From Bacillus sp. J33 (GTDB lineage: Bacteria > Bacillota > Bacilli > Bacillales > Cytobacillaceae): a stretch of 64,000 bases of DNA. The notes beneath the pieces were generated by a model. The model ran no database searches and was not told where the DNA came from. It saw only the letters and a program-made list of their open reading frames with translations. The stretch spans positions 18,580 through 82,579 of the forward strand of contig NZ_JAEL01000009.1 in NCBI RefSeq assembly GCF_000518885.1, given 5' to 3'. Shown piece by piece: positions 15,641 to 36,772 of the stretch (position 1 is its first letter; each line of letters begins with the position of its first letter). The translations under genes were made by a program, and so were the position numbers.

Positions 15641-15646
15641 ATATAT

Positions 15647-16981: not shown

Positions 16982-16991
16982 TCAAATAGAC

Positions 16992-17223
16992 CACCTGATC
17001 GATGAATACGAACTTCTTGACATAGATTCAGGCCATTATGGAATAACCATAGGAAAAGATGGTGCGCTATGGTTTACAGATAAAGCCAATCAAATTGGTC
17101 GAATTACAATGAAAGGTGAAATTACAGAATATTCAATCCTTGAAAGCGTGGAATTGCACTAGGACCCGACGGTGACATTGGTTCGCTGAGGAATGCAATA
17201 AGATAGGCCGGCTTCGTTTATTA
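16992..17223 (+). pseudogene. Remnant of virginiamycin B lyase (vgb)
   Basis: One frame reads [32 protein letters not shown], a blade of the Vgb beta-propeller (the G-DG-hydrophobic-WFT...IGRI pattern). After a frame change it continues IALGPDGDI, and after a second change WFAEECNKIGRL. About 230 of the roughly 900 bases expected remain, with two frameshifts and no start. Vgb lyases linearise streptogramin B antibiotics. It abuts the intact vat-like gene, so a vgb-vat pair appears to have lost its first member. Confidence 0.65.
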
Positions 17224-17250
17224 TAAAAATCCTGAAAGGAAGTAGATGGT

Positions 17251-22959: not shown

Positions 22960-24081
22960 ATGAAATCCTATTGGTTATGGATCCTGCTTAACGTGGCTGT
23001 CTGGCCGTTTGCGATCGGTTATCTGAACCTTCCTATAAATCAATTAACTGGTGTCCTATTGGGAGCTGCCCTTTACTTCCTGCTCTTTTTTCTTGTTCCC
23101 TTAATCGAAAAAAAGCCCATTATCTTATTTTTCGTTTTATGTACGAATATCCTTATTGCCACAGGTATCCTATTTCCGTACAGCGGTGAGTTTAGCCCAT
23201 TTCTTCTTCTTATCCTTTCTCTTTTAATCGCTGAGGGCTTTTATCGTCTGCCGCTTCGATATAGTATAGCGAATGGGGCATTGGCTGTAATCGGGTTATG
23301 GATCTCCGCTTTATATAGTAATCTGGGGCTGTTCATCGATTTTTATATTGTCATATACACCATTTTTCTTTTCATGGCTCTTATCCATTATAAGAAAACA
23401 AAGGATCAGCTGATGGATGTGGAAGCACGTTACGAGGCGATTTTAGGTGAGTATCGTGATGTAAAGCGAAGGGCTGTTTCAGAGGAAGAACTGGCCAGGC
23501 AGGAAGAGAGGGTGCTGATTGCCCATGAAATCCATGATTCGGTTGGACATAAGCTGACGGCACTCATTATGCAGCTGGAAATGTTTCGATTGCAAATCTC
23601 AGAAGACCATAAGGAACGGGTGGAATCATTAAAGGAACTGGCCAGTGGAAGCCTGGATGAAACACGCAGGGCCGTTAAATCGCTAAAGGCGAATGACACG
23701 GGCGGACTTCCCGGCATCCTGCGTTTAATTCGCAAGCTGGAATTGGAAAATATGATGCATATTCATTTCTCTGTAAAATACGGTGCCTTTTCTGCCCCTT
23801 TGACTGGTGAGCAATCATTTGCCATCTATCGTTCTGTCCAGGAAGCATTAACGAATATCATGAAACATAGTGATACGAAGGAAGCAGAAATTACCTTTGA
23901 AGCACCAGGCGGCAGTATTTTTCGATTTGAAATTAAAAACCCTATCTCTGAAACGGGAAACTACCAGGAAGGCTTTGGCCTAAGTCAGATGCGGCAGCGG
24001 TTAGAGAAACATAATGGCGGTTTGAAGGTGTACCAAACCGAAGGACAATTCATAGTCAGCGGCTTTATAAAAATAAAATAA
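22960..24081 (+). CDS. Sensor histidine kinase, LnrJ/YfiJ-like
   Basis: A 373-residue NarL/DesK-class sensor kinase. Five or six membrane helices fill about residues 1-145 with almost no extracellular domain, a coiled stretch follows, then the HisKA_3 dimerisation domain with phospho-acceptor His192 (IAHEIHDSVGHKL) and a HATPase_c domain (EALTNIMKHS, then GFGLSQMRQRLEKHNG). This build and the gene order kinase-regulator-ATPase-permease-permease match the B. subtilis LnrJKLMN linearmycin response system. A MITE-like repeat separates it from the regulator gene. The intergenic region before it carries an imperfect GGAACGGTTCCC-type hairpin (22804-22843). Confidence 0.82.
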   Translation: MKSYWLWILLNVAVWPFAIGYLNLPINQLTGVLLGAALYFLLFFLVPLIEKKPIILFFVLCTNILIATGILFPYSGEFSPFLLLILSLLIAEGFYRLPLRYSIANGALAVIGLWISALYSNLGLFIDFYIVIYTIFLFMALIHYKKTKDQLMDVEARYEAILGEYRDVKRRAVSEEELARQEERVLIAHEIHDSVGHKLTALIMQLEMFRLQISEDHKERVESLKELASGSLDETRRAVKSLKANDTGGLPGILRLIRKLELENMMHIHFSVKYGAFSAPLTGEQSFAIYRSVQEALTNIMKHSDTKEAEITFEAPGGSIFRFEIKNPISETGNYQEGFGLSQMRQRLEKHNGGLKVYQTEGQFIVSGFIKIK

Positions 24082-24086
24082 GGCAG

Positions 24087-24306
24087 TTTTCGTAAATTTT
24101 AGTTGGTTTCGAGAGGCAAAAAAGTTTAACCGCTGAGTTGATTGGAGCGGAAGGGGCGAGACTCCTGCGGGAGAAGCGAGTCAAAGGGAGACCCCGCAGG
24201 TGCGAATGCACCGAGGAGGCTCCCGGACCGCCCGCGGAAAGCGAGTCCCTGCAGCGGAAATCAACGGGTATAATTCAAACGCTATATCAATAATCTTGAA
24301 ACAGAG
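24087..24306. repeat. MITE-like element, copy A
   Basis: The left end TTTTCGTAAA (24087-24096) and a degraded right end CAATAATCTTGAAACAGAGC frame a G+C-rich core: GAGTTGATTGGAGCGG, GACTCCTGCGGG, GAGACCCCGCAGG, CCGAGGAGGCTCCCGG, CCCGCGGAAAGCGAGT, GCGGAAATCAAC. It has no coding capacity and folds back on itself. Copy B is at 38991-39206, a fragment is at 20679, and bases 1-10 of the window match the core's 3' end. Confidence 0.7.
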
Positions 24307-24336
24307 CAAAAATAATACCAAGTACAGGTGATATCC

Positions 24337-24969
24337 ATGATTCGAATACTCCTGGCAGAAGATCAGGTAATGGTTAGACAGGGCTTAAAGATGATGATTG
24401 AAACAGAGGATGAGTTTCAAGTCACCGGGGAAACGGATAATGGCAAAGAAGCCATCGCCCTTTGTGAAAAGATGCAATTTGATATTGCGATTCTCGATAT
24501 TCGCATGCCTGTGATGGATGGATTGAAAGCGGCAAAGGTCATTCAATCGCGCTGGCCCCATACGAAAATTTTAATGTTAACAACCTTTGATGACGATGAT
24601 TATGTCATGGAGGCGCTCCGGATAGGCGTAAGTGGATACATTTTAAAAAATGGTGATACGGATGCACTGCTTCGTTCGATCCGCAGTGCATTAAAGGGCG
24701 GGTTATCAATCGAAGAGCAAGTCGCCGCCAAGGTCGTTCCCCAGTTAATGAAGCAGCAAGACAGTAAGGAACCGGACCCGTCTTTGACGCCAAGGGAACG
24801 GGCTATTTTAAAATGTATAGGCGAAGGGCTCAGCAATAGCGAAATTGCCGAAAGGCTGGCTATATCTGCAGGTACTGTCAAAAATAACACAAGCCAAATT
24901 TTAACGAAATTAGATCTAAGGGATCGCACGCAGCTGGCGATCTATGCAATCCGCCATAACCTTGTATAA
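24337..24969 (+). CDS. NarL/LuxR-type response regulator, LnrK/YfiK-like
   Basis: A 210-residue response regulator. The receiver domain (1-120) has the acidic pair E8-D9, phospho-acceptor D54 (AILDIRMP) and Lys in the ILKNGD loop. The C-terminal LuxR-type HTH is LTPRERAILKCIGEGLSNSEIAERLAISAGTVKNN-type near residues 145-180. The start is ATG at 24337 with AGGTGAT five bases upstream; a GTG nine bases earlier overlaps that site. It is the partner of the preceding kinase and probably activates the ABC genes that follow. Confidence 0.88.
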   Translation: MIRILLAEDQVMVRQGLKMMIETEDEFQVTGETDNGKEAIALCEKMQFDIAILDIRMPVMDGLKAAKVIQSRWPHTKILMLTTFDDDDYVMEALRIGVSGYILKNGDTDALLRSIRSALKGGLSIEEQVAAKVVPQLMKQQDSKEPDPSLTPRERAILKCIGEGLSNSEIAERLAISAGTVKNNTSQILTKLDLRDRTQLAIYAIRHNLV

Positions 24970-25086
24970 ATCAACATAAATGATTAAAGTAATGGATAAA
25001 TACATAAGTCGTGACTGGAGGCAGTAGTGATACTGTTTCTTTTTTTATATCTTAAACGTAACAAACCAATGAAGGAGTGCGGTTTT

Positions 25087-26019
25087 ATGCTGGAAACAGT
25101 AAAACTTACGAAAAGTTTTAAAGATAAAAAAGTGGTGGATGAAATCAACCTTTATTTACATGCAGGGGAATCAGTTGGGCTGCTTGGGCCGAATGGCGCC
25201 GGCAAATCAACAACGATTTCCATGATTGCTTCCCTTATCCGGCCAACTTCCGGGGATGTCAAGCTTGATGGGAAAAGTACCATTCAAGACCCTTCTGACC
25301 TCCGAAAAGTGCTTGGGGTTGTTCCACAGGAAATTGCGTTATATGAGGAGCTTTCGGCATATGAAAATCTGAAATTTTTCGGTAAAGCCTATCGGGTGAA
25401 AAAGGACGTTTTAGAAGAGCGGATTCAGGAAGTGCTGGATATGGTTGGGTTAAAGGATCGCCAAAAGGGGCTTATTAAAACCTTTTCCGGCGGGATGAAG
25501 AGAAGAATCAACATCGCAGCTGCCTTGCTGCATAACCCAAGAATTCTCATTCTGGATGAACCAACTGTCGGAATTGATCCCCAGTCAAGAAACCATATAT
25601 TAGAGACCGTTCGGCAATTAAATGAAACCCATGGCACAACAGTCCTTTACACCAGTCATTACATGGAGGAAGTTGAGCAATTATGCAATCGGGTCTACAT
25701 CATGGATCACGGAAAAATTATCGCGACAGGCAGCAAGGAAGAATTGTTAAGTATATTATCCAGCGAAGATACGATTCAGGTACAGCTCAGCAAGAGAAGT
25801 GAACCGTTCATAAACATGATCAAATCTTTCCCGAATGTTCTTCAAGCAGATGAAACCAATGAGGGGCTTCGCATGATTTCGAAAAAGAACCACAATCTTT
25901 TAAGCGAGCTCGTACATGCTGCAGAAAAAGAAGGCATTCAAATCGTTAACTATCAAGTAGAAATTCCAAGCCTGGAGGATGTCTTTTTACACCTGACAGG
26001 GAAAACCTTGCGGGATTAA
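25087..26019 (+). CDS. ABC transporter ATP-binding protein, LnrL-like
   Basis: A 310-residue ATPase of the DrrA/CcmA drug-export subfamily. Walker A GPNGAGKST is near residues 38-46, the signature FSGGMKRRINIAAALLHNP near 137-155, Walker B ILILDEPTVGIDP after it, and the H-loop TSHYMEEVEQL later. A C-terminal regulatory extension ending in LEDVFLHLTGK is typical of this group. The start is ATG at 25087 behind AAGGAG. It energises the two permeases encoded immediately downstream; the five-gene order matches lnrJKLMN. Confidence 0.88.
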   Translation: MLETVKLTKSFKDKKVVDEINLYLHAGESVGLLGPNGAGKSTTISMIASLIRPTSGDVKLDGKSTIQDPSDLRKVLGVVPQEIALYEELSAYENLKFFGKAYRVKKDVLEERIQEVLDMVGLKDRQKGLIKTFSGGMKRRINIAAALLHNPRILILDEPTVGIDPQSRNHILETVRQLNETHGTTVLYTSHYMEEVEQLCNRVYIMDHGKIIATGSKEELLSILSSEDTIQVQLSKRSEPFINMIKSFPNVLQADETNEGLRMISKKNHNLLSELVHAAEKEGIQIVNYQVEIPSLEDVFLHLTGKTLRD

Positions 26020-26032
26020 GGAGAGGTGAAAA

Positions 26033-27292
26033 ATGGGCACTTTTATATATAAAGACCTGCTGGTATTCTGGAGAGACCGCAAAGAGATCTTAATGGCTCT
26101 ATTGCTTCCCATTCTCCTTATTGTCATCTTAAACTATGCCTTTTCAGGTCTTTTCAATGATGATGAAGACGCTGTTCATATAGATATCGCAGTGGTGCAC
26201 GAAGATGATGTAGATAAAGGGAAAGTGCAATTTGAAGATACTGTGCATGAAAAGGATTTATCTGCTGCGGATAAAAGTACCGTACTGGCTGAAGCAGCAA
26301 ATCTTGATCCCGTTCAGCTTATCGATGATTTTTTAAATAACCCTGATATGCAAAAATGGGTAACCGTAAAGGAATTAAGTGAACAGGAAGCATCGGAGCA
26401 AATCAAAAATGGGGAACTGGATGCGTTTTTAAAGATTCCGGAAGGATTTACGCATGATGTTCTTTCCAGTGTCCTGTTAGGAGAACCAGCCCAGGCATCC
26501 TTAATGATTTTAGCAGAAAAGGAATCTGCTGAGGTCAGTACCCTTCAAGAGATCATCTATGGCTTTACGGATTCTGTAAATATGCAGTTTGCCCTTGGGA
26601 GTATGGGGGAATTGGCGTCAGCTGACCCAGTCCTGCCTGAGGGGGGAAGGGAAGTGGTTGATGGGGCTGAGACGTATACCATTTCCCAATACTTTACGAT
26701 TGCCATGGGTACTCTGTTTGGCTTATTCCTGGCTCAAACGGTAGCGTTAAAAACCGTAACTGAAAAGCGTGAGCGGGTATTTAACCGGATCTTGTTAACC
26801 AATAGCCATCCGATGTACTTTTTAATTGGGAAAACGGCGGCTGCCTTTATACTATCATGTATACAGCTGGCTATTACCTTTACAGCCGTTCAATTGCTGT
26901 TAGATGTATTTCCCGATAAATCGTTAACATTTTGGGCCGGATTAATGGTTGTCATGATGGCATTTGCCTTAACCATTGCGGGACTATCGGCTTTATTAAC
27001 ATCCATCACGCTCCATGTAAGTGACAGTAATGCAGCAAGTGGAATTTCCACCCTCATTATTATGGGGCTTGGGGTTCTGGGCGGCAGCTTCTTCCCGCTT
27101 GAAGGGCTTCCGGAGCCGCTCCAAAAAATTGGCGAATGGACACCTAATGGCTTTACACAGACAGCACTAATAGAATGGGTTCAATATAGCCATGTAAGTG
27201 ACTTGCTCTTCCCGGTTGTCTTTCTTTTGGCTGTATTTATCGTTTGTTTTGGCATCAGTATGTCAATCTTTCCAAAAGGGGGGAGAAGCTAA
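26033..27292 (+). CDS. ABC-2 type permease, LnrM-like
   Basis: A 419-residue ABC-2 permease. A first membrane helix (about 20-38) is followed by a large extracellular domain of about 190 residues (rich in acidic residues), and then five helices from about residue 225 on. The order helix-ectodomain-five helices is that of YhgE/DrrB-like exporters, including LnrM. The C-terminal part contains LIIMGLGVLGGSFFPLEGLPEPLQKIGEWTPNG, the conserved ABC-2 signature region. GAGAGGTG precedes the ATG. The stop TAA overlaps the next start by one base. Confidence 0.85.
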   Translation: MGTFIYKDLLVFWRDRKEILMALLLPILLIVILNYAFSGLFNDDEDAVHIDIAVVHEDDVDKGKVQFEDTVHEKDLSAADKSTVLAEAANLDPVQLIDDFLNNPDMQKWVTVKELSEQEASEQIKNGELDAFLKIPEGFTHDVLSSVLLGEPAQASLMILAEKESAEVSTLQEIIYGFTDSVNMQFALGSMGELASADPVLPEGGREVVDGAETYTISQYFTIAMGTLFGLFLAQTVALKTVTEKRERVFNRILLTNSHPMYFLIGKTAAAFILSCIQLAITFTAVQLLLDVFPDKSLTFWAGLMVVMMAFALTIAGLSALLTSITLHVSDSNAASGISTLIIMGLGVLGGSFFPLEGLPEPLQKIGEWTPNGFTQTALIEWVQYSHVSDLLFPVVFLLAVFIVCFGISMSIFPKGGRS

Positions 27293-28392
27293 TGAGTCCA
27301 GTGTTTTACGCTCAATTGTTAAAGGATAAACGCAAACCGCTGCTTATCCTGTTATTTATTGGCCTCAGTATTTTAGCCACTCTCATTTTTGGGAATTCGG
27401 CCAGACAGACGGAAACGACGGTTGCGGTTTTTGCCTCTGGTTCAAATGCCAAGGAAATTGAACAAAAATGGGTGAAGTTATTAAATGATGATACTGAAAC
27501 GAAATATATCATTTCAGAAGAAAGGATAGCGCGTGAACAGGTTAGAGAGGGAAAAAGGGATGTGGCGATTCATGTCATGGAAAATGATTATCGCTTAATT
27601 ACATCCTCAGATATGCCAAACATCCAGCTTGTGGAGGAAGAGGTCCATAAAGTTTTTACAGAAGAAGCAAAGCTTCAAGCGATAGCCGGCTCACAAAATA
27701 CTGCAATATTAAGAGAAGAAGTGGAGAGCTACATGGAAAAACCGCCATTAACCGTTCAAACGAAAAATGTTAAAGGCGGAGAACTTACGGGCCATGATAT
27801 GGGTACCCAGCTGCTGTTTGGTTTTACCTTGTTTATTGCCATGTTTACGATCGGATTTAAGGTTAATGCCATTAATGCAGATAAGGTAAGCGGGGTTTGG
27901 AACCGCTTGAATCTATCCCCGGTGAGCAAAGCCAATATGTATGCCGGTCACTTATTGTATAGCTTTTGCATTGGATTTTTTCAAATGGCCGTTGTTTTTC
28001 TCATCTTTGAATATGTGATGAACTATGAGATTGGGCATCTTCCGATCATTCTAACGATAGCGGCGGTATTTACATTAAGCACCGTAAGCTTGGCCATGCT
28101 AATTGCAGGAATGACCAAAACACCTGAGAAGTTTAATATGATTTATCCATCTTTTACTCCGATGATTCCCGTGATCAGCGGCGTATATATGCCTCCAGGT
28201 ACCATAGATAACCCAGTATTCAGCTTTATGGCAGATCTCTTCCCGCTCGGCTATGCAATTGAAGCCATGATGGATGTCACACTCTTTGGTGCAGGCTGGA
28301 GTGATATTGCGCTGCCCGTTTCGTTCATGCTCCTTATTGCTGTGATGTATATGGGGATTGGGATTAATCTGGGAGAACGGGGGAGGCGGTGA
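27292..28392 (+). CDS. ABC-2 type permease, LnrN-like
   Basis: A 366-residue second permease with the same build as its neighbour: one N-terminal helix, an extracellular region of about 140 residues, then five helices, with GVYMPPGTIDNPVFSFMADLFPLGYAI as the ABC-2 signature region. The ATG at 27292 shares a base with the upstream stop (TAATG) and GGGGGGAGAAG precedes it, so translation is probably coupled. The two permeases likely form a heterodimer with the ATPase at 25087. A clear terminator follows about 55 bp later. Confidence 0.85.
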   Translation: MSPVFYAQLLKDKRKPLLILLFIGLSILATLIFGNSARQTETTVAVFASGSNAKEIEQKWVKLLNDDTETKYIISEERIAREQVREGKRDVAIHVMENDYRLITSSDMPNIQLVEEEVHKVFTEEAKLQAIAGSQNTAILREEVESYMEKPPLTVQTKNVKGGELTGHDMGTQLLFGFTLFIAMFTIGFKVNAINADKVSGVWNRLNLSPVSKANMYAGHLLYSFCIGFFQMAVVFLIFEYVMNYEIGHLPIILTIAAVFTLSTVSLAMLIAGMTKTPEKFNMIYPSFTPMIPVISGVYMPPGTIDNPVFSFMADLFPLGYAIEAMMDVTLFGAGWSDIALPVSFMLLIAVMYMGIGINLGERGRR

Positions 28393-28615: not shown

Positions 28616-28641
28616 TATAATGAAAAGTGTAATCGATTACA
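28616..28641 (+). promoter_or_regulatory. -10 element and palindromic cre-like site before the PRD regulator
   Basis: TATAAT (28616-28621) is followed by the perfect palindrome TGTAATCGATTACA (28628-28641), 29 bp before the ATG. The palindrome fits the TGnnAnCGnTnnCA frame of CcpA cre boxes and would lie at the start of transcription. It could equally be the operator of the encoded regulator. No convincing -35 was found. Confidence 0.45.
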
Positions 28642-28670
28642 TGAGCAACTACTAGTAGAGCGGTGAGGAT

Positions 28671-30521
28671 ATGTTAACGTCAAGAGCGTTTCAGCTGGCA
28701 AACAAATTATTAATGTCAAAATCCCCATTAAGGATTAAAGATTTATCTGTGGAGTATGGTGTAAGTACCCGAACAATTAAGTATGATTTGGAAATGGTGA
28801 GAGACTGGTTTAAAACCCAGAACCATCAACTGCATTCCCAAACAACGAAAGGTATATGGATTGAATGCAGTGATCAAGCACGAATGAACCTTAGGAGAAT
28901 CCTGACTCAGTTTGAACGTTCCAATATTTATCCGGACCAGACGGTGCGTGTGAGGAAAATTATCCTGGCTTTAATCTTAACCAATGAGTATATTACTGCT
29001 GCTGATTTTTCTGAATCATTAGATGTAAGCAGAAATACCATCCTAAGTGATTTAAATAAGGTGGAAGAATTCCTTTGTTCATGGGGGATAAATCTTGAGA
29101 GAAAACAAAGGGCTGGATACAGGCTTTTAGGGGAAGAGCTTCAAATTCGCTTAATGCTTGAACACATGATCTACAACGATCTGGATGATTATGAAATCTA
29201 TAAAATGACGACTCGAATCACGAAGAAGGACAATGATGCAGATGCAGGGCTTCTCATGGATGAAGCCTTAATGAATGCTTATAAAGCTGTTGAGGAACAG
29301 ATGAGGGAATTGTACAATCCTTCATTGGCTCCCATCATACGCCTGTCCGATTTGCTGAAAAGTCTGTTCCGGATCACCTTTTCAGTTATCAGGCTGAATA
29401 TGGGCCATACCATCAGCAGCTACCGTGTTTTAGACAGATCCGAAATTAAGGATGATGGGTCTAAGTTTTTAGCTTCTGCCATGGGAAAAATCCTCTCTGA
29501 TTTGCAGCTGCCATTATTGGAGGAGGAGTTCCTATATGTAACAGGCAGTCTTGAGAAGGAAACCGAACCTGTAGATGCAGTTGAGATAACGGAAAAAATC
29601 ATCCATTACGTAAGCAAGCTGGAAGGAATTGATTATCAAAAGGATCACAAGCTTTACAGCAACTTGCTGGCTCACTTGTCGCTAAGGTTCCAAAACGGAT
29701 CTCTTTATTTAAACGAAATGAATCCAATGGAGGAAGAGATTAAAAGAAATCACCCTGAACTTTTTAAAAGCGTTCAGCATGCATGCTGCCGTTTTATTAA
29801 ACAGCATGCATTGATTGCCCAGGATTCGTTCATCTCCTTAATAGTCCTTCATTTTCTGGTATCTTATGAGAATACATTTAAGCCAAAGCGGAAAGTAAAA
29901 GTTCTTTATGTGTGTTCAACCGGAAGAGGTGTGGCACGGCTTATTAAAAACCGCGTTGAAAAAGAGATTCCGGCTGTGGATATCGTTGCCTATTGTTCCC
30001 TTCTTGAAGTGGAAGAAATATGCCAGCGGGAAGAGGTTGATATGATCGTAAGCGTCTTTCCGGTTGAAACAACCATTCCTGTTGTGGTTGTAGAGCCGCT
30101 TCCGGGAAAAAGTGATATTGAGGCAATTAGAGAGCAAATGAAACTGTTAATCGGACCGGAAGCGGAGGAGATCAATAACCTTCTTGAGGATAGTGATTTT
30201 CGGTCAATCCGTGAAGAAACTGAAACCATAAGCCAGGAGATTATTTTAAAAGGTTTTGAAGTGGTACAGGCATTGCTGGATGCTTTTCCAATTGAATCAA
30301 AGGAAGATTGGAAGAATGCTTTTGAAATCCATGTGTTCTTAATGGTCCACCGTTATTATTTTGATAAGCAATATGACCAGTATTTCTATAGCAGCCAGCA
30401 GCTTTTGGACAGTGATGTAGAAATGATGAATAAAGTTCGAAGTATTTTGGAAGGTAAAGACCTGCAGGTTCATGATGCAGAAGTTTTTACTCTATTACAA
30501 TACTTTAAAAAATGGAAGTGA
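28671..30521 (+). CDS. PRD-containing transcriptional regulator with EIIB-like domain
   Basis: A 616-residue BglG/MtlR-type activator. Two N-terminal winged helices (about 1-60, SVEYGVSTRTIKYDLEMV, and 75-150, SESLDVSRNTILSDLNKVEEF) are followed by two PRD domains (about 200-300 and 310-400) and a PTS EIIB-like domain from about 405 with Cys415 in VLYVCSTGRGVARL. Beyond about 500, the segment EIHVFLMVHRYYFD looks like a further PRD-like helical region rather than a normal EIIA domain. PRD and EIIB domains normally sense PTS phosphorylation, yet no PTS transporter gene is present in this cassette. It precedes the operon by four bases and is presumably its regulator. Confidence 0.82.
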   Translation: MLTSRAFQLANKLLMSKSPLRIKDLSVEYGVSTRTIKYDLEMVRDWFKTQNHQLHSQTTKGIWIECSDQARMNLRRILTQFERSNIYPDQTVRVRKIILALILTNEYITAADFSESLDVSRNTILSDLNKVEEFLCSWGINLERKQRAGYRLLGEELQIRLMLEHMIYNDLDDYEIYKMTTRITKKDNDADAGLLMDEALMNAYKAVEEQMRELYNPSLAPIIRLSDLLKSLFRITFSVIRLNMGHTISSYRVLDRSEIKDDGSKFLASAMGKILSDLQLPLLEEEFLYVTGSLEKETEPVDAVEITEKIIHYVSKLEGIDYQKDHKLYSNLLAHLSLRFQNGSLYLNEMNPMEEEIKRNHPELFKSVQHACCRFIKQHALIAQDSFISLIVLHFLVSYENTFKPKRKVKVLYVCSTGRGVARLIKNRVEKEIPAVDIVAYCSLLEVEEICQREEVDMIVSVFPVETTIPVVVVEPLPGKSDIEAIREQMKLLIGPEAEEINNLLEDSDFRSIREETETISQEIILKGFEVVQALLDAFPIESKEDWKNAFEIHVFLMVHRYYFDKQYDQYFYSSQQLLDSDVEMMNKVRSILEGKDLQVHDAEVFTLLQYFKKWK

Positions 30522-30525
30522 ATGT

Positions 30526-31683
30526 ATGAATGAACCTATGATCATTCAAAATGGGTTAGTCATTGACCCAGAAGCCTTAACCATTAAAGAGATGGATATT
30601 GGCATTCTAAATGGAAGATTTACTCCTGATGAAGAAGTGCTGGAGAAGGTACATCAAAAAGTGCAGTATATTGATGCGTCAGGGTATTATGTATCCCCGG
30701 GATTTATTGATTTACATGCCCATATCTTTAAGGATTGTACAGAGTTGGGAATTGATCCGGATCTTGTTGGTGTAGATCAAGGAGTCACGACCATTGTGGA
30801 TGCAGGAAGTTCTGGATACGACAACTACAGTCTGCTTAAGGAAGAAATCATTAATAATAGCAAAACAGAAATATTAGCCTTTCTCAATATTTCACGGAAA
30901 GGGTTGTGTCACGGACTTTCGGAACTTGCTAACTTAGACGATTTGATGACCCTTGAGGAAGCACAAGAGATTTTAAAGAAAGAAAAAGGTATTGTTGGGC
31001 TTAAGGCCAGAATGAGCGGATCTGTTGTACAGGATAGCGGAATACAGCCTCTCAAACATGCCAGAAAACTAGCAGACGAATTACATAAACCAATAATGGT
31101 CCATATTGGAAATCCTCCTCCAAAATTACAAGAGATTTTCCCCCTTCTTGAAAAAGGGGATATTGTGACACATGCCTTTCATGGGAAAAAACATGGAATC
31201 TTAAAAGAGTCGGGTGAATTGATACCTGAAGCAATAGACGCAATTAGAAGAGGTGTCCGGTTTGATGTTGGCCATGGGACTTCGAGTTTTAGCTATAAAA
31301 CGATGAGAAGGTTTAAGGAAATTTATGATATTGCTTTTACGATCAGTACCGATATCTATAAGAAAAACTATTCTCATCCTGTAGGGAGTCTTATGGTTAC
31401 TATGACAAAGCTGCTTTCCCTTGGCTATTCTTTAACCGAAGTGGTGGCAGCAGTCACGAAACGGGCTGCAGATACGCTGCATTTAACTGAACAAGGAACA
31501 TTTAAATATGGCACTAGAGCAGATGTTACGATCTTTGGGCTAGAAGAAAGGAATGTTCTTCTAGCCGATTCGGAAGGAGAAGAATTGGCCTGTCATCAAA
31601 TTCTCACTCCATACATGACCATAAAGACTGGAAAGGTGGCATACCAGAAAGAAGATGGAATTAAAAACACAAGAGCTTTATGA
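30526..31683 (+). CDS. Amidohydrolase/deacetylase family metallohydrolase (EF_0837/AHA_3915 type)
   Basis: A 385-residue amidohydrolase-superfamily enzyme with a TIM-barrel. Metal ligands are visible as HAH in DLHAHIFKD near residues 65-70, a likely carboxylated Lys in VGLKARMSG, His in MVHIGNPP and HAFHGK, and Asp in ISTDIYKK. The N-terminal (IQNGLVIDPE) and C-terminal (GTRADVTIFGLE) beta-sandwich strands are typical. It is the family always found with DgaE/KDGP-aldolase genes, where deacetylation of an N-acyl amino-sugar acid is a reasonable guess. The start is ATG at 30526; the gene overlaps the next by 29 bases. Confidence 0.82.
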   Translation: MNEPMIIQNGLVIDPEALTIKEMDIGILNGRFTPDEEVLEKVHQKVQYIDASGYYVSPGFIDLHAHIFKDCTELGIDPDLVGVDQGVTTIVDAGSSGYDNYSLLKEEIINNSKTEILAFLNISRKGLCHGLSELANLDDLMTLEEAQEILKKEKGIVGLKARMSGSVVQDSGIQPLKHARKLADELHKPIMVHIGNPPPKLQEIFPLLEKGDIVTHAFHGKKHGILKESGELIPEAIDAIRRGVRFDVGHGTSSFSYKTMRRFKEIYDIAFTISTDIYKKNYSHPVGSLMVTMTKLLSLGYSLTEVVAAVTKRAADTLHLTEQGTFKYGTRADVTIFGLEERNVLLADSEGEELACHQILTPYMTIKTGKVAYQKEDGIKNTRAL

Positions 31684-31984
31684 AAAAAGCGAAGAACCGC
31701 AATTATGCAAAGAAGTGATGCAATTTGCGGTACAGCTCATGTCACAGGAAAACATTAAGATGACAGATGCTCAATTGCTATCTTTGTTATCTCATATTTC
31801 AGCAATGATATACCGCTCCAAACATAAAGAAGAGATTCAGCCTGTAGATGCATCTCTTTTTCAAGAAGTTTCCGATGGATCTATAGATATGGCAAAACTA
31901 GTCTGCGGGCTAATCTCTGACTTGCATGATGATGAGAAATACTTGCTTTCTATACATTTTGAATCTGCAAAAATGAACAATTAA
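31655..31984 (+). CDS. Small stand-alone PRD domain protein (EF_0829/AHA_3910 type)
   Basis: A 109-residue protein consisting of essentially one PRD-like helical domain (MQFAVQLMSQENIKMTDAQLLSLLSHISAMIYRSK). Stand-alone PRD proteins of this size occur in the same conserved cassette in Enterococcus and Aeromonas. It contains a conserved His (LSHIS) that could be a phosphorylation site. The ATG at 31655 lies inside the end of the amidohydrolase gene, implying coupled translation. Possible role: a phospho-sensing or regulatory subunit. Function unproven. Confidence 0.7.
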   Translation: MELKTQELYEKSEEPQLCKEVMQFAVQLMSQENIKMTDAQLLSLLSHISAMIYRSKHKEEIQPVDASLFQEVSDGSIDMAKLVCGLISDLHDDEKYLLSIHFESAKMNN

Positions 31985-31997
31985 GGGAGGAAATATT

Positions 31998-32357
31998 ATG
32001 AATCAAGTGGTTGTCGTAATTGGAGATCGTTTAGGAAAAGGCCAAAATGTAGCAAAAGGAGTTGAAGCAGCTGGCGGAAAAGCTATTGTAATTAACGGAG
32101 TTGGTGCAGATATGCGTCTTGGAGATGTCATGAAAGCTGAAAATGCGGACCTGGGCATATCTTTCTGCGGAAGCGGAGGCGCAGGAGCCATCACAGCACA
32201 AACGAAATATGGGTATCCTGCCCATTATGGTATGCGCTCCATTGAAGAGGGTGTAACAGCTGTTAATGAAGGGAAACGCGTGCTGGGATTTGGGTTTATG
32301 GATGTTGAGGAATTAGGAAAGCGTATTACAGAAGCTTATATGAAAGCAAGAGTGTAA
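31998..32357 (+). CDS. SFCGS-family glycine-rich protein (EF_0830/AHA_3911 type)
   Basis: A 119-residue soluble protein with the family motif ISFCGSGGAGAITAQ holding the only Cys (Cys57). The N-terminal VVVVIGDRLGKGQNVAKGVEAAGG reads like a beta-strand, glycine-rich loop and helix of a small alpha/beta fold, similar in size and logic to PTS EIIB subunits, which carry phosphate on one Cys or His. That resemblance is inference. GGGAGG precedes the ATG by seven bases. It stands with DUF4312, DUF4311 and DUF4310 genes in a fixed order. Confidence 0.8.
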   Translation: MNQVVVVIGDRLGKGQNVAKGVEAAGGKAIVINGVGADMRLGDVMKAENADLGISFCGSGGAGAITAQTKYGYPAHYGMRSIEEGVTAVNEGKRVLGFGFMDVEELGKRITEAYMKARV

Positions 32358-32361
32358 GCCT

Positions 32362-32715
32362 ATGGAAAAAGTCATTCAGCAAAAAGTCAGAGTAAAAGGT
32401 ACAGGCAAGACCAAAGAACATGCCATTAATTTCGCTCTTGGACAAATACAAAAAAAAATCCTGGACGAACATAAAGCTTTAATGATTCGCATTGAACCTT
32501 TAGGGATTGAATTGATCGAAGCCATTGAACAAACCCATACAGAACGGTTTATGCTCTTTTTCTTTCCAAGAAAGAGACAGACTTACAAAGTTGTTTTAGA
32601 CGTTACTGTTCAAGCAACCTTATTAAATGTGAATGAAATTGATTTTAAGAGATTGGAAGAGCCTGGAGGAGTGATGAATGGGATTTTCCAAAATCAGCAA
32701 ATAACAGAGAAATAG
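32362..32715 (+). CDS. DUF4312 family protein (EF_0831/AHA_3912 type)
   Basis: A 117-residue soluble protein of the DUF4312 family. It has an N-terminal strand-helix segment with VKGTGKTKEHAINFALGQIQKKI, a middle LMIRIEPLGIELIEAIEQTHTERFMLFFFPRKRQTYKVVLDVTV and no Cys. The alternating strands suggest a small alpha/beta or dodecin-like fold; no activity is known. It starts four bases after the SFCGS stop codon. Its constant place between the SFCGS and membrane genes suggests a subunit of the same complex. Confidence 0.8.
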   Translation: MEKVIQQKVRVKGTGKTKEHAINFALGQIQKKILDEHKALMIRIEPLGIELIEAIEQTHTERFMLFFFPRKRQTYKVVLDVTVQATLLNVNEIDFKRLEEPGGVMNGIFQNQQITEK

Positions 32716-32725
32716 GAGGGGGAAC

Positions 32726-33511
32726 ATGGAGGTATTGGAAATAGCTATAAAGTCAATCATTATCGGTGCCTTTGTCGGCGTAGGGGTCGGAGCAGGAGCA
32801 GCCAGAATGTTCCACGCGCCCAAAGTGCAGGGGATGGGGGCATTCCGTACTTTAGGGGAGCTCAATGCCTGCGCTGGTGACGCAGCATCCCATTTTTCCT
32901 TCGGGCTTGGATTCTTTTTTAACGCATGGGCATCTTCTGTTGGTGCTGGTGCTTTCACACAGGATGTTGACCACCGGATTATCCCGAATTGGGCTGCATC
33001 TGTCCTTATGCGCAAAGGAAAACGTCCTGAAGATACCCTGCATAATCCTCAGAAAATGGCTATTGCCGGGGGCATCATCGGAATTATTGTCGTTGCTTTC
33101 TTAAATCTTACTGCATCCGCCATTCCTGAATCACTGCAGGCTATTGCCGTTAAAGTGCTTGTTCCTGCTGCGAACCTATTAATTAACCCAGTAATGCCAG
33201 TCATTTTCTGGCTTGCTGCACTGGATGCCGGGAAACGTTCCGGGTTTTGGGGGACTATCTTTGGAGGAGCTGCTCATTTAATCATGGGGAATGCTGTTCC
33301 TGGTGTTGTTTTAGGGATTTTAATAGGCAAAGGCGTAGATGACAGCGGATGGAATAAAGTCACGAAAACATTGATCACTTCTGTTATTTTACTATTTGTA
33401 TTAAGTGCATTCTTCCGTGGATTTGATATGCAGTTATTAGAAAGCATGTATATTGATACCCCGGAATGGCTGAAAGACTTGCATAGATTATTAGGATTAG
33501 AGGTGAAGTAA
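32726..33511 (+). CDS. DUF4311 integral membrane protein (EF_0832/AHA_3913 type)
   Basis: A 261-residue membrane protein with about six or seven hydrophobic segments. Characteristic blocks are GAFVGVGVGAGAARMFHAPKVQGMGAFRTLGELNACAGDAASHFSFG-type sequence in the first 60 residues and NPVMPVIFWLAALDAGKRSGFWGTIFGGAAHLIMGNAVPG later. Charged or polar residues inside the hydrophobic stretches (His, Glu, Asn, Asp) could line a substrate path. AGGAGGGGG precedes the ATG. With DUF4310 it makes a membrane pair comparable to EIIC/EIID of mannose-type PTS, but without recognisable homology. Confidence 0.8.
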   Translation: MEVLEIAIKSIIIGAFVGVGVGAGAARMFHAPKVQGMGAFRTLGELNACAGDAASHFSFGLGFFFNAWASSVGAGAFTQDVDHRIIPNWAASVLMRKGKRPEDTLHNPQKMAIAGGIIGIIVVAFLNLTASAIPESLQAIAVKVLVPAANLLINPVMPVIFWLAALDAGKRSGFWGTIFGGAAHLIMGNAVPGVVLGILIGKGVDDSGWNKVTKTLITSVILLFVLSAFFRGFDMQLLESMYIDTPEWLKDLHRLLGLEVK

Positions 33512-33512
33512 A

Positions 33513-34211
33513 ATGAACTCTCAAACTGCCCGAGCTATAGATCAGGAGGTAAATAAAAAGCCAGAGATTGATATGAGCAAAAACTTCTGGTATGCAGACT
33601 GGTCATTCCCTATTTTCGTTGCCCTTCTATCCTCAGGGATCTTTGCGGGAACACATATGTACTATGTTTATAAAATCGGTGCTTTTAATGATGTTGCGAT
33701 CGTGGCTATGTTAGAAGCTGGAATTCAGGGTGCTGGCTATGGAGCTGCGGCAGCATTTGGAGCAAGCTTCTTATTTGCACGAATATTAGAGGGTTCGCTT
33801 GTTGGGATCCTGGACATTGGAGGCTCGCTTCAAACTGGTATCGGCATTGGGGTACCTGCCTTATTGCTGGCATCGGGGATTACCGCGCCACTTGAAAACT
33901 TTATCCTTTCTATCATTACTGGTGCCTTGCTTGGGGTAATTGTAGGGTATGTCATTATTGGAATCCGTAAATTCACGGTAAACCAATCAAACTCAACCTT
34001 TGGAGCAGACATAATGATGGGAGCAGGCAATGCATCCGGCCGTTTCCTGGGTCCTCTAATTGTCATCTCAGCAGCAAGTGCATCCATTCCAATTGGCATC
34101 GGATCAATTATTGGTGCAGCCATTTTCTACGTTTGGAAAAAACCTGTTGCGGGTGGAGCTATTTTAGGAGCCATGATTTTTGGAGCAATCTTCCCAATTT
34201 CTTTAGAATAG
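33513..34211 (+). CDS. DUF4310 integral membrane protein (EF_0833/AHA_3914 type)
   Basis: A 232-residue membrane protein with about six helices, rich in glycine and alanine. The cytoplasmic N-terminus (about 35 residues) is hydrophilic, followed by FWYADWSFPIFVALLSSGIFAGTHMYYVYKIG and the loop LEGSLVGILDIGGSLQTGIGIG. It begins two bases after the DUF4311 stop, with AGAGGTGA as ribosome binding site, so the two are almost certainly made in equal amounts. Its function is unknown; a permease subunit is the simplest reading. Confidence 0.8.
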   Translation: MNSQTARAIDQEVNKKPEIDMSKNFWYADWSFPIFVALLSSGIFAGTHMYYVYKIGAFNDVAIVAMLEAGIQGAGYGAAAAFGASFLFARILEGSLVGILDIGGSLQTGIGIGVPALLLASGITAPLENFILSIITGALLGVIVGYVIIGIRKFTVNQSNSTFGADIMMGAGNASGRFLGPLIVISAASASIPIGIGSIIGAAIFYVWKKPVAGGAILGAMIFGAIFPISLE

Positions 34212-34223
34212 GTGTGAGTTAAA

Positions 34224-35336
34224 ATGAGTGTTTTTGAATCATTTGGATTACGTAAGGTCATTAACGCCAGCGGTAAAATGACGGCATTGGGCGCATCTGC
34301 TGTCAGTGATGAAGTGGCGGCTGCCCTACAGAAGGCATCACAGGATTATGTAGATATAGATGAAATGATGGAATTTGCAGGACAGGTCATAGCTGAATAT
34401 ACAGGAGCCGAAGATGGCTGCCCAACATGCGGTGCAGCTGCAGGGATCGCCATCTCTGTCTCTTCCGTCATTACTGGAAAAAACCTCACTTTAATTGAAA
34501 GGATGCCAGAATCAGAGGGGCTTAAGAATGAGATCATTCTACAAAAGGGCCAGCAAATCCACTTTGGGGCTAATATTGGTCAAATGATCCGGTTAGGAGG
34601 AGGCAAAGTGGTTGAAGTGGGAAGCGCCAATAAAGTAGAAGCAGACCATATTCAGCAGGCCATAACAGAAAAAACTGCTGCGCTTTTTTATGTTAAATCT
34701 CATCACGCTGTACAAAAAGGAATGCAGCCGATAGAAACGATGCTGGAAATTGCGAATAATCATAATATCCCATTCATTATTGATGCAGCAGCAGAGGAAG
34801 ACTTTAAAAAGTATATAAAAATGGGTGCTGATATTGTAATATACAGCGGCGGAAAAGCGCTGGAAGGTCCCACTTCCGGTTTAATCTGCGGGAAAAAAGA
34901 ATGGATGGAAGCATGCAGAATGCAATATAAAGGCATTGGGCGGCCAATGAAAATTGGAAAAGAAGGGGTTGCAGGGCTCATTGCAGCATTAAAGCAATAT
35001 CCATTTAAAAAAGACAATGCAGAAGACCAAATTGCACGAATGAAAAAGCTGTGCCAATCGCTTGAAAATGTTGAAGGCCTTACATGTTCAATCAAGCAGG
35101 ATGAAGCAGGAAGGGCAATCTACCGGGCACAAATTGAAGTTGATTCCGATAAGGCAGGTATGACTGCTGAACAGCTACTTAACCGCCTTGAAACAGGTAA
35201 TCCGGCGATTTACCTTCGCCATCATTATGTCAACATAGGCATTTTAGCCGTGGATCCGCGGCCGCTTCTTAAAGGACAGGAAGAAATTATTGCAAATACA
35301 ATAAAGAGTATACTAAAAGAGGAGCAGCTTTTATGA
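34224..35336 (+). CDS. dgaE: DgaE-like PLP-dependent ammonia lyase
   Basis: A 370-residue fold-type I PLP enzyme related to D-glucosaminate-6-phosphate ammonia lyase DgaE (and SelA). The PLP lysine is K211 in YSGGKALEGP and the preceding Asp is in PFIIDAAAEED. The start FESFGLRKVINASGKMTALGASAVSDEV and CPTCGAAAGIAISVSSVITG are family hallmarks. It would eliminate ammonia from a 2-amino-2-deoxy sugar acid phosphate to give a 2-keto-3-deoxy sugar acid phosphate. Its gene overlaps the aldolase gene by four bases (ATGA). The true substrate in this cassette is not proven. Confidence 0.82.
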   Translation: MSVFESFGLRKVINASGKMTALGASAVSDEVAAALQKASQDYVDIDEMMEFAGQVIAEYTGAEDGCPTCGAAAGIAISVSSVITGKNLTLIERMPESEGLKNEIILQKGQQIHFGANIGQMIRLGGGKVVEVGSANKVEADHIQQAITEKTAALFYVKSHHAVQKGMQPIETMLEIANNHNIPFIIDAAAEEDFKKYIKMGADIVIYSGGKALEGPTSGLICGKKEWMEACRMQYKGIGRPMKIGKEGVAGLIAALKQYPFKKDNAEDQIARMKKLCQSLENVEGLTCSIKQDEAGRAIYRAQIEVDSDKAGMTAEQLLNRLETGNPAIYLRHHYVNIGILAVDPRPLLKGQEEIIANTIKSILKEEQLL

Positions 35337-36055
35337 ACCATAAAGTCATTTTTAATGTATTAGCAAAGGATGAAAATAATGCGAAAGAGCTTGTGGATGC
35401 AGCCGGAGACCGTGTATTAGTAGGCATAATGGTTAAAAATTTTCCGAATGAGGAAGACGCTATAGAACAAGTGGAATTTTATAAAAAACAGAATATTCCT
35501 GTTTCCGTAGGCTTGGGAGCGGGCGATCCTGCGATGTGGAAAATGGTAGCCGATGTTTCGGCCAAAACGCATCCTGAGCATATAAATCAAGTGTTCCCAG
35601 CTGCCGGATATACTCTCGGGCGTATTTCCGAGCTTAATTTCTCAAATACCATTGTCAATGCGCTGATTGAACCATCTGGAACTCCTGGACAAGTCTATAT
35701 CTCAACTGGTCCCAACAGTTCTGAATACAAAGAAAAGGTATCTTGCGAAATGGCTGCATCAATGCTTGCTGAAATAGGGGTCCACTCTGTTAAATTCTAT
35801 CCAATTAACGGAGATGAAAGACTGGATGAAGTAGCAGCTATGGTTAAGGCTGCTTCACAGGCTGGCTTGAAAATTTTTGAACCCACAGGCGGTATTGATG
35901 TCGAAAACGTATACCGAATTGTCCAAACCTGCCTTGAAAATGGGGCTGAAATGGTTATTCCACATTTGTATACTTCTTTAGTAAATAAGGAAACTAGCAA
36001 AACTGAAGTAGAGAAAATCGAACAGCTGATAAACATGAAATGGAATGTCAATTAA
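35333..36055 (+). CDS. dgaF: KDGP aldolase family protein (DgaF-like, EF_0839/AHA_3917 type)
   Basis: A 240-residue class I aldolase-like protein with a TIM barrel. The Schiff-base Lys is expected in VHSVKFYPINGDERLDEV, and VGLGAGDP and EPTGGIDVENVY provide the phosphate-binding loops. The family cleaves or is predicted to cleave 2-keto-3-deoxy-6-phosphogluconate to pyruvate and glyceraldehyde 3-phosphate, the step after DgaE. The ATG overlaps the DgaE stop (ATGA), showing translational coupling. A hairpin follows directly after the stop codon. Confidence 0.82.
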   Translation: MNHKVIFNVLAKDENNAKELVDAAGDRVLVGIMVKNFPNEEDAIEQVEFYKKQNIPVSVGLGAGDPAMWKMVADVSAKTHPEHINQVFPAAGYTLGRISELNFSNTIVNALIEPSGTPGQVYISTGPNSSEYKEKVSCEMAASMLAEIGVHSVKFYPINGDERLDEVAAMVKAASQAGLKIFEPTGGIDVENVYRIVQTCLENGAEMVIPHLYTSLVNKETSKTEVEKIEQLINMKWNVN

Positions 36056-36058
36056 GAG

Positions 36059-36090
36059 AAAAGGAGCTTTCGTCTGATAGCTCCTTTTTA
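36059..36090 (+). terminator. Terminator after the KDGP-aldolase gene
   Basis: AAGGAGCT (36061-36068) pairs with AGCTCCTT (36079-36086), followed by TTTATTTTT. The HAD gene 20 bp further may be expressed by partial read-through. Confidence 0.6.
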
Positions 36091-36109
36091 TTTTTAGGAG
36101 GGTTAATAA

Positions 36110-36772
36110 ATGAATTCATATGCAGTTATATTTGATATGGATGGTGTCATTGTAGATAGTGAACCCGTTTTTAAAAGGCTGAATGAAGAATTGTTTCAAG
36201 AGTTAAATTTAACGGTGCCTGATGAGATACGATCACAATTTACAGGAGGGAGTGCCAATCGTAAATGGAGATTGATAAAAGAACACTGTGGAGTTACACA
36301 GCCTTTAGAGGAGCTTATTAGCTTTCAAAAAGATTTTTTCAGGTCAAGGAATGTCCGATTTGATGAGATTTTATTCCCGGGAGCACGCCCATTGCTAGAT
36401 ATGCTAAAAAAGCATGAAATTCCGGCAGCACTTGCATCCTCTTCAGATAGGGAACGAATTAATAAAGTTATAGACGATTGCAATCTCTATGGTTTTTTTG
36501 ATTCAGTAGTCAGTGGGGAGGTATTCGAGGAAAGCAAACCACATCCAGAAATCTTTCTTCATACCGCTGCAAAATTAGGAATGGAACCTGAAAGGTGTGT
36601 CGTCATTGAGGACTCCTTAAATGGATTAACTGCAGCTGCACGTGCTGGTATGAAGAAAATTGGAGTTAAGCATAAACAAATCCCTATGGATTTATCAATG
36701 GCAGATTATACTGTTTCATCCTTGGAGGAAATAGACCAATTGTTGTTAGAAAAAGTTTTGAAGAAATCATAA
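36110..36772 (+). CDS. HAD-superfamily sugar phosphatase / beta-phosphoglucomutase-like
   Basis: A 220-residue HAD subfamily IA protein. Motif I is FDMDGVIVDSEP (nucleophile Asp9 and general acid Asp11), motif II is ALASSSDRERI, motif III Lys is in EESKPHPEIF and motif IV is VIEDSLNGLTAA. The helical cap lies between residues 15 and 80. This group dephosphorylates sugar phosphates or isomerises beta-sugar phosphates. It has its own TAGGAGGG ribosome binding site and follows the aldolase by 54 bp across a terminator. It probably serves the same catabolic route, for example by removing a toxic phosphate ester. Confidence 0.82.
   Translation: MNSYAVIFDMDGVIVDSEPVFKRLNEELFQELNLTVPDEIRSQFTGGSANRKWRLIKEHCGVTQPLEELISFQKDFFRSRNVRFDEILFPGARPLLDMLKKHEIPAALASSSDRERINKVIDDCNLYGFFDSVVSGEVFEESKPHPEIFLHTAAKLGMEPERCVVIEDSLNGLTAAARAGMKKIGVKHKQIPMDLSMADYTVSSLEEIDQLLLEKVLKKS

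Follow-up and report, generated by a model that had tools for sequence, protein, structure and literature searches.

The PTS is textbook knowledge and its permease superfamilies form an established list; DgaABCD of Salmonella is a PTS of the mannose type. As far as the accessible part of the published account goes, DgaABCD brings in the substrate, the ammonia lyase DgaE receives the 6-phosphate, and Arg301, Arg332 and Arg346 of DgaE bind the phosphate (PMC9529869). The literature searched assigns no function to the cassette EF_0829-0839/AHA_3910-3917 (models TIGR03577-TIGR03583) or to the SFCGS, DUF4312, DUF4311 and DUF4310 families, the last four of which the first-pass annotation had called undescribed.

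A cassette of this kind lies in the window analysed here, a stretch of 64,000 nucleotides from Bacillus sp. J33. The gene order claimed earlier was confirmed: ten genes on the + strand, the regulator through the KDGP aldolase running head to tail from 28671 to 36055, then a terminator and the HAD gene.

28628..28641, + strand: cre-like site TGTAATCGATTACA, a perfect palindrome 29 bases 5' of the regulator
28671..30521, + strand: transcription regulator with HTH, PRD, EIIB-like and EIIA-like regions (HTH_11, Mga, PRD in Pfam)
30526..31683, + strand: amidohydrolase/deacetylase-type metallohydrolase of the EF_0837 kind (NF006689)
31655..31984, + strand: small PRD-only protein, proposed histidine phosphocarrier (PF00874, TIGR03582)
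31998..32357, + strand: SFCGS protein, proposed cysteine phosphocarrier adjoining the transporter (PF14272, 206.5 bits)
32362..32715, + strand: DUF4312 protein, putatively accessory (PF14189, 103.6 bits)
32726..33511, + strand: DUF4311 membrane protein with hydrophobic segments, proposed translocator half (PF14188, 412 bits)
33513..34211, + strand: DUF4310 membrane protein with hydrophobic segments, proposed translocator half (PF14187, 368 bits)
34224..35336, + strand: DgaE-family PLP ammonia lyase (TIGR01437, 526 bits)
35333..36055, + strand: KDGP aldolase of the DgaF kind (PF07071, 286.5 bits; TIGR03581, 316.9 bits)
36110..36772, + strand: HAD phosphatase 3' of the terminator (PF13419; TIGR02009, below its cut-off)

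The amidohydrolase start was read from the sequence as the ATG at 30526, four bases past the regulator stop; the list of open reading frames puts it at 30472, from which the residues of this protein are numbered. The small PRD gene overlaps the amidohydrolase gene (31655 versus 31683). Between the aldolase and HAD genes, the hairpin AGGAGCT-10 nt-AGCTCCT followed by T's was seen in the sequence; with its 10-nt loop it is not listed by a hairpin scan with a loop limit of 8. The palindrome, which would fit a catabolite-responsive site, was matched once versus 0.13 matches expected. Of 29 loci, the window's among them, 4 have cre-like sites in the 250 bases 5' of the regulator, versus 5 of 1450 random 250-base stretches.

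The family assignments of the first-pass annotation held against curated cut-offs, which were passed by SFCGS (206.5 bits versus 27.3), DUF4312, DUF4311, DUF4310, the small PRD protein (TIGR03582), the aldolase (PF07071/TIGR03581), the lyase (TIGR01437, 526 bits over 385) and the amidohydrolase (NF006689, 421.7 bits over 371). A Dga-type end of the pathway, with lyase and aldolase, is likewise supported. The EF_0829/AHA_3910 models TIGR03577, 03578, 03579, 03580, 03581 and 03582 were all above cut-off; the amidohydrolase model TIGR03583 (346.9 versus 432), the DgaE equivalog NF047797 (438.8 versus 600) and NF047796 (276.8 versus 300) were missed.

Of the 321 relatives detected, the best 80 loci were compared. 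The small PRD protein, SFCGS, DUF4311 and DUF4310 were each present in all 80, DUF4312 in 79 of them and the regulator in 78; the amidohydrolase, DgaE and the aldolase occurred in 77 each, and a HAD phosphatase relative in 11. The arrangement is not due to chance, because the core families recur in nearly all of these loci, and the small PRD protein is a member of the invariant core. The locus devoid of DUF4312 (L030) retains the PRD-only protein, and no regulator of the cassette type was found within the stretch around it. DUF4310 and SFCGS exceeded their cut-offs in one and the same set of 7 genomes out of 398, and the cassette occurs in Bacilli, Clostridia, Enterobacterales and on a Bartonella plasmid.

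Two cassettes, L024 and L025, are made up of nothing but the regulator and the five core proteins, with no pathway enzymes within the surrounding stretch. Such separate standing of core and regulator indirectly favours the transport role proposed in the first-pass annotation. It would also suit a sensor, in which the membrane pair, SFCGS and the PRD protein set the activity of the regulator and transport nothing. We consider this very improbable, since most catabolic cassettes (DgaE in 77 of 80 loci) would then be left without an uptake gene in the operon, and the enzymes can lie elsewhere: in G244, the likely genome of L025, the DgaE gene sits on a different contig, beside an EIIC and a kinase of its own.

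The closest solved structures of the DgaE-like protein are 7lc0/7lce (E 5.6e-99), and R301, R332, R346 and H160/H161 are kept, with K211 in the same residue set. The three phosphate-binding arginines were conserved in 88 of 88 sequences; therefore a 6-phosphate is needed. Twelve strong DgaE loci were found in 299 genomes, five of them inside a cassette. All seven cassette-free loci adjoin a phosphorylating gene (PfkB in four, two of which also carry an EIIC, FGGY in two, a mannose-type PTS in one), whereas neither a PfkB nor an FGGY kinase turned up when the same queries were run on 84 cassette loci. The core thus takes the place held by a kinase or a PTS beside other DgaE genes, a further indirect argument for transport. 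The exceptions are the Enterococcus faecalis operon, which holds an EIIC, MupG, a PfkB kinase and a 99-aa protein without a Pfam match, and loci L086 and L133, each preceded by a kinase gene of the OtnK type, which in L133 belongs to a separate run. The first-pass annotation had held that consistent company of a dedicated transporter would speak against its proposal; E. faecalis provides such company with EIIC and MupG, but not consistently, as a search with such an EIIC as the query gave no match in the 84 other cassette loci.

The genes of HPr and Enzyme I lie beside the cassette in four lineages. In all six Paenibacillus loci they precede the regulator by 14-198 bases; in Hungatella they lie 13 bases downstream of the aldolase; in the Bacillota genome G159 they follow the cassette, and the Bartonella HY761 plasmid encodes a single HPr-Enzyme I fusion directly after the regulator. 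Pfam domains were checked for five linked HPr/Enzyme I proteins and the Bartonella fusion. Each of seven Hungatella and Paenibacillus genomes has 3-4 Enzyme I copies. Of the nine linked Enzymes I, eight were placed in a tree, where they did not form one clade (AU p 0.0003, four label changes; p 0.011 without G159, in which the linked copy scores best among its Enzymes I and could be the housekeeping one). All 7 cassette genomes from the phylum draw contained Enzyme I, versus 70 of 189 in the phylum, with kinship ignored. Same-direction linkage concerns 7 of the best 80 of 321 relatives, and the other 73 loci have no linked Enzyme I. In place of the earlier view that the transporter replaces a PTS, the evidence suggests feeding by the general PTS proteins.

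The soluble partners carry invariant residues of phosphorylatable type. In the small PRD protein, H47 and H101 were found in 78 of 78 distinct sequences, and in SFCGS, C57 in 54 of 54 aligned sequences (and in 32 of 32 of another set, six YhfU/DUF2620 proteins among them) and the motif FCGSGGAGA in 88 of 88 frames. Of nine YhfY relatives, three, that of E. coli among them, have lost the second PRD histidine, which counts against PTS-fed uptake. DUF4312 has no conserved His or Cys among 76 aligned sequences, in which E45, P46, E61 and R70 are near-invariant; many polar residues of DUF4311 are invariant. The amidohydrolase, nearest to the solved structures 8wzy, 2ics and 2ogj, keeps H82, H84, H211, H234 and H268 in 83 of 83 sequences. 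In the regulator, H335, C415 and H554 are present in 75 of 75 sequences and H394 in 74 of 75. Its EIIB label is a reading from sequence, and it has no PTS_EIIA_2 match in Pfam at E 1; the Bartonella orthologue does match, giving the sole recognisable EIIA domain.

Altogether, the block from the PRD protein to DUF4310 is probably a PTS-dependent importer that hands a 6-phosphate to DgaE. This reading is favoured because HPr and Enzyme I adjoin the cassette in four lineages with Enzymes I not of one clade, because all seven cassette genomes of the phylum draw have Enzyme I, because the PRD histidines and the SFCGS cysteine are invariant, because DgaE needs a phosphate, while no PfkB or FGGY kinase was detected in the 84 cassette loci searched and a kinase or PTS gene lies beside DgaE in all seven cassette-free loci, and because in Salmonella, as described in the accessible part of its account, a PTS does the same job. 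Transport, the substrate and each phosphoryl-transfer step from HPr on we infer from the observed families, gene order, residues, HPr/Enzyme I linkage and absence of PfkB/FGGY. We give an even chance to the full chain, by which a 2-amino-sugar acid, with D-glucosaminate or an N-acyl form (the putative substrate type of the first-pass annotation) as the likeliest, would be phosphorylated during uptake with PEP phosphate. The phosphoryl group would pass from Enzyme I to HPr, to a histidine of the small PRD protein (rather His47), to Cys57 of SFCGS, and to the substrate while it crosses the DUF4311/DUF4310 membrane pair, with DUF4312 as an accessory; alternatively, SFCGS would be charged by the regulator's EIIA-like domain rather than by the PRD protein. 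The amidohydrolase would strip the acyl group inside the cell, and elimination of ammonia by DgaE would yield 2-keto-3-deoxygluconate-6-phosphate, which the aldolase would cleave to pyruvate and glyceraldehyde-3-phosphate. The regulator would sense the phosphorylation state of the chain.

HPr and Enzyme I could also serve the regulator alone. DUF4311/DUF4310 would then be an ordinary, non-phosphorylating transporter, with the PRD protein, HPr and Enzyme I regulating it or the regulator only, and the substrate would arrive phosphorylated or meet a kinase encoded elsewhere in the genome. To our knowledge, every PRD domain characterised so far is a target of regulation, the regulator itself bears a PRD and PTS-like residues, and kinases do occur in the E. 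faecalis operon and near L086 and L133. We regard this alternative as unlikely, though worth keeping in mind: it sits poorly with the lack of PfkB and FGGY in 84 cassette loci and with the kinase or PTS at all seven cassette-free strong DgaE loci, and the PRD-only protein is present in all 80 cores, including L030 with no such regulator in its stretch, and in Yhf operons, which have a different type of regulator.

A Pfam scan of the ten window proteins found no recognisable EIIA, EIIB or EIIC domain, in the five core proteins or elsewhere, contrary to what a PTS permease of a known superfamily would show; this lack of resemblance also weighs against PTS-fed uptake. SFCGS had no profile similarity to EIIB-Gut (0.06%), and DUF4311/DUF4310 scored under 2% against EIIC-Gut, glucitol EIIB and EIIC being the sole EII types compared. 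Profile comparison found the small PRD protein homologous to YhfY (99.4%) and SFCGS homologous to YhfU/DUF2620 over its whole length (115 columns, 88.9%, E 2.4e-6). A model built from nine relatives of YhfU matched the SFCGS of L030 at 1.8e-5; the window SFCGS reached E 0.076 and 13.7 bits against Pfam DUF2620 (cut-off 25).

The joint SFCGS+DUF2620 profile matched RpiB at 78.9% (E 1.6e-5), with seven control profiles at or below 1.3% and SFCGS and DUF2620 singly at just 12.2% and 21.5%; Cys57 aligned with the RpiB/LacAB cysteine, and Pfam LacAB_rpiB gave weak matches in 19 of 32 members (best E 0.009). Homology to RpiB/LacAB is thus weakly indicated. SFCGS is nearer to these isomerases than to EIIB-Gut, which counts against PTS-fed uptake, and the likeness would suit sugar-phosphate chemistry as well as phosphocysteine. 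SFCGS could accordingly be an enzyme of the RpiB/LacAB kind that has a sugar phosphate as its substrate and Cys57 as its base, leaving transport to DUF4310/DUF4311. We find this improbable: conversion of glucosaminate-6-phosphate to KDGP requires no isomerase, SFCGS is kept in L024 and L025 without pathway enzymes nearby, and above cut-offs it never parts from DUF4310 in 398 genomes.

If PTS-fed uptake is true, the PTS donor proteins feed unrelated permease parts and the permease list is extended, SFCGS, DUF4310, DUF4311 and DUF4312 gain their first function, PRD domains gain a catalytic role, and a function is predicted for the E. coli yhf genes. More tentatively, and with somewhat less than an even chance, we propose that the cassette represents an additional class of group-translocating permeases, dependent on PEP and without kinship to the known EII superfamilies. 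It would combine a PRD EIIA-like histidine carrier, an RpiB-like SFCGS/YhfU EIIB-like cysteine carrier and a DUF4311/DUF4310 (or YhfT) channel, with YhfY-YhfU-YhfT of E. coli K-12 as an unrecognised member.

The glucitol PTS (GutA/GutE/GutB) likewise has two membrane components, soluble carriers and a cysteine near glycines, but no profile similarity (0.06-1.5%, GutB being outside the comparison). RpiB/LacAB isomerases resemble SFCGS weakly around the cysteine, the one active-site residue compared, whereas SFCGS is shorter and the cassette pathway has no isomerase step. Compared with DgaABCD-DgaE-DgaF of Salmonella, the window has a lyase and an aldolase of the same families, and a 6-phosphate enters the lyase there according to the accessible part of that account; the Salmonella uptake is a PTS, whereas no PTS EII family was found in the ten window proteins, of which the lyase and aldolase fall below the equivalog cut-offs. 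The EF_0829-0839/AHA_3910-3917 cassette comprises the same families, to which E. faecalis adds its EIIC, 99-aa protein, MupG and PfkB kinase. The E. coli yhf operon differs in its regulator, in lacking DUF4312 and in having one large membrane protein, YhfT, with no similarity to DUF4311/DUF4310 detectable by profile comparison; no HPr or Enzyme I was labelled in eight yhf stretches of ~20 kb. It nevertheless joins the PRD-only YhfY and the small cysteine protein YhfU/DUF2620 to a membrane protein, as the cassette does, and yhf operons also carry Php and PLP-type genes.

The ten plus-strand cassette genes that the first-pass annotation had described in the window were borne out by gene calls and family profiles; its family assignments were right, and the cassette is real and conserved. 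The best start position of the amidohydrolase gene was 30526. Among the best 80 of 321 relatives, PRD, SFCGS, DUF4311, and DUF4310 were each present in 80/80 loci, DUF4312 in 79, the regulator in 78, and the amidohydrolase, DgaE, and the aldolase in 77 each; the loci were at least 20 kb long in 71 of the 80 cases and shorter in the remaining ones, and L076 is truncated by its contig end. The regulator gene was the last one in 47/80 loci and the first, as in the window, in 26, with other orders in seven. The cut-offs of SFCGS and DUF4310 were passed in an identical set of genomes (7/398 of the phylum). Two loci, L024 and L025, encoded the regulator and the five core proteins with none of the three enzymes within the stretch examined, so the core forms a separate unit. 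A reduced cassette of a Defluviitaleaceae MAG (L030) was devoid of DUF4312 and the PRD regulator; upstream of it lies an MFS symporter gene, and downstream one for a second amidohydrolase that by eye resembles NagA. Directly upstream of the window cassette (22960–28392), genes recognized by eye encode a paired histidine kinase and response regulator, followed by an ABC ATPase and two permeases of the ABC-2 type. No Rfam match was obtained anywhere in the window.

The residues that a phosphate relay might use were highly conserved. His47 and His101 of the small PRD protein, which we take to be the positions where PRD domains get phosphorylated, were kept in 78/78 distinct sequences. Cys57, the only cysteine of SFCGS, was present in 54/54 aligned sequences and the motif FCGSGGAGA in 88/88 SFCGS frames; the length filter of the alignments kept 64/88 loci for SFCGS and 85/91 for PRD, identical rows being then merged. 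Cys415 and His554 of the regulator were found in 75/75 sequences. DUF4312 was ruled out as an EIIA, its alignment showing no conserved His or Cys. PRD and SFCGS occurred in one open frame of 249 aa at a single locus (L132, 9634–10383), and no second fusion was found in the order-level search (1/4 genomes, G274 only). The fusion was considered weak support since the ribosome-binding site and ATG are still present inside the frame and the adjoining DUF4311 gene is broken.

In the Salmonella DgaE study, Arg301, Arg332, and Arg346 of DgaE place the substrate phosphate, as judged by docking, and the 6-phosphate is provided by DgaABCD, a PTS (PMC9529869). These three residues were present in all 88 DgaE sequences compared, with no difference between kinase-bearing and cassette operons. 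Such identity supports a phosphorylated substrate for all DgaE proteins without separating the two kinds of operon. Strong DgaE loci, i.e., ten over the cut-off plus two just under it, numbered 12 in 299 genomes; five lay within the cassette, and in the other 7/7 a phosphorylating gene adjoins DgaE.

Genes beside DgaE at the seven strong DgaE loci outside the cassette:
L196: EIIC, MupG, and PfkB
L197: PfkB
L198: EIIBC, MupG, and PfkB
L199: PfkB
L200: mannose-type PTS
L201: FGGY
L202: FGGY

The same queries (phmmer, E 1e-4) detected no PfkB or FGGY in 84 cassette loci. Among these loci, EII genes occurred only in L015 and L023 (4.9 kb off, by a GH32 gene) and in L129 (14.8 kb). The EIIBC of L015/L023 was rejected as a cassette part, as it belongs to the neighboring GH32 (sucrose-type) run, Pfam having been applied to L015 only. 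ROK matches about 8 kb off in five Paenibacillus loci were not counted as kinases because their length suggests repressors. OtnK-type kinases, missing from the first screen and added later, were encoded upstream in L086 and L133, in the latter within a separate run.

In E. faecalis, the DUF4310 and amidohydrolase genes are separated by those for EIIC, a 99-aa protein, and MupG, and DgaE is followed by a PfkB kinase gene; the gene table of this locus lists no aldolase. This extra block resembles the stand-alone L196 block and hence looks like a second module. Nonetheless, a kinase and an EIIC are present in the cassette operon, which counts against the proposal that the core phosphorylates its own substrate, as do the OtnK-type kinases of L086 and L133. 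As a separate observation, L198 (G066 C8) combines amidohydrolase, DgaE, aldolase, and PfkB with EIIBC, MupG, and a SIS-domain protein resembling MurQ, so the DgaE pathway may join N-acetylmuramate recycling there.

HPr and Enzyme I genes adjoined the cassette in the same direction in 7/80 loci, the other 73 having no linked Enzyme I. In six of six Paenibacillus loci they lay upstream, 14–198 bases before the regulator, and in Hungatella (L026) downstream. The same arrangement was found in G159 (L129), 249 bases after a HAD-type gene; the linked Enzyme I is the best-scoring copy of that genome and may be the housekeeping one. This case and the 73 unlinked loci weigh against a core fed by the PTS. 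The seven Hungatella and Paenibacillus genomes carried 3–4 Enzyme I copies each. Bartonella sp. HY761 has a 55.9 kb plasmid in which a 671-aa HPr–Enzyme I fusion is encoded right after the regulator, which bears a PTS_EIIA_2 domain; no further PTS gene is annotated in the plasmid's gene table, which can be incomplete. This alphaproteobacterial plasmid (NZ_CP104889.1) holds the whole cassette at 7630–17420 (L146). Next to it are genes for type VI secretion and the plasmid's replication/partition genes, present as an inverted repeat; a match was also obtained to another plasmid, HY406.

A tree was built from 24 Enzymes I, eight of the nine linked ones among them; the L032 copy was not included, and that of G055 was omitted owing to an incorrect reading frame. 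In this tree, which has several long-branched rows, including Bartonella and Hungatella, the linked Enzymes I did not form one clade (four label changes, AU p 0.0003; p 0.011 without G159). Enzyme I was present in 7/7 cassette genomes of the phylum draw, two of the same genus and one being the window's own, vs 70/189 across the phylum. HPr-family genes (90–146 aa; PF00381 for the L033 member) of 17 gammaproteobacterial loci were not counted as linkage, lying 7–10 kb from SFCGS on the opposite strand. The mechanism with the best support, to which we give about an even chance, is a PTS-fed, group-translocating importer built of parts unrelated to known PTS permeases. Its main rival, a transporter merely regulated by the PTS, seems rather unlikely.

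Judging from DgaE and the aldolase, the substrate is likely a 2-amino-2-deoxy-aldonate 6-phosphate, and the amidohydrolase, which is similar to 2ics and 2ogj, suggests an N-acyl or ester form. A lactonase-family protein is encoded between the aldolase and the regulator in 23 Enterobacterales loci (L029–L087; PF10282 for the L029 member, the sole one Pfam-scanned). Its presence fits an aldonolactone outside the cell and hints at a lactone as the natural substrate, the localization being a guess from the N-terminus only, which is signal-like by eye.

In the open-licence full texts searched, no function of SFCGS, DUF4312, DUF4311, or DUF4310 was found, and EF0839 was mentioned solely for a possible link to amino-sugar metabolism (PMC7701990). 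Profile comparison led us to reject SFCGS as a glucitol-type EIIB, an idea prompted by sequence likeness, and gave no support for DUF4311/DUF4310 being EIIC-Gut proteins or corresponding to halves of YhfT. A joint SFCGS+DUF2620 profile matched RpiB/LacAB (78.9%, E 1.6e-5) with the cysteines aligned to each other, whereas none of seven control profiles exceeded 1.3% and the two families taken singly reached only 12.2% and 21.5%. SFCGS and DUF2620/YhfU were homologous (88.9%, E 2.4e-6, 115 columns); a model from nine YhfU relatives, L030 excluded, matched the L030 SFCGS at 1.8e-5, and the cysteine was invariant over both families (32/32). The yhf cluster of E. coli K-12 (L127, 3504935–3512344) and eight Bacillota loci (L134–L141) parallels the SFCGS cassette, comprising a YhfZ-type regulator, YhfY PRD, YhfU, YhfT, Php, YhfS, YhfX, and YhfW, with an extra protein of 359–379 aa in 6/8 Bacillota loci. 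The DUF2620 gene is grouped with those for the PRD-only protein and YhfT in 8/8 DUF2620 loci and E. coli K-12, so the trio of PRD-only protein, small Cys protein, and membrane protein occurs twice. The first PRD histidine was kept in 9/9 YhfY relatives and the second in 6/9, being missing in E. coli, which slightly lowered our confidence that the core, YhfY–YhfU–YhfT included, represents a further class of PEP-dependent group-translocating permeases, a reading that we put forward tentatively, as possible rather than probable.
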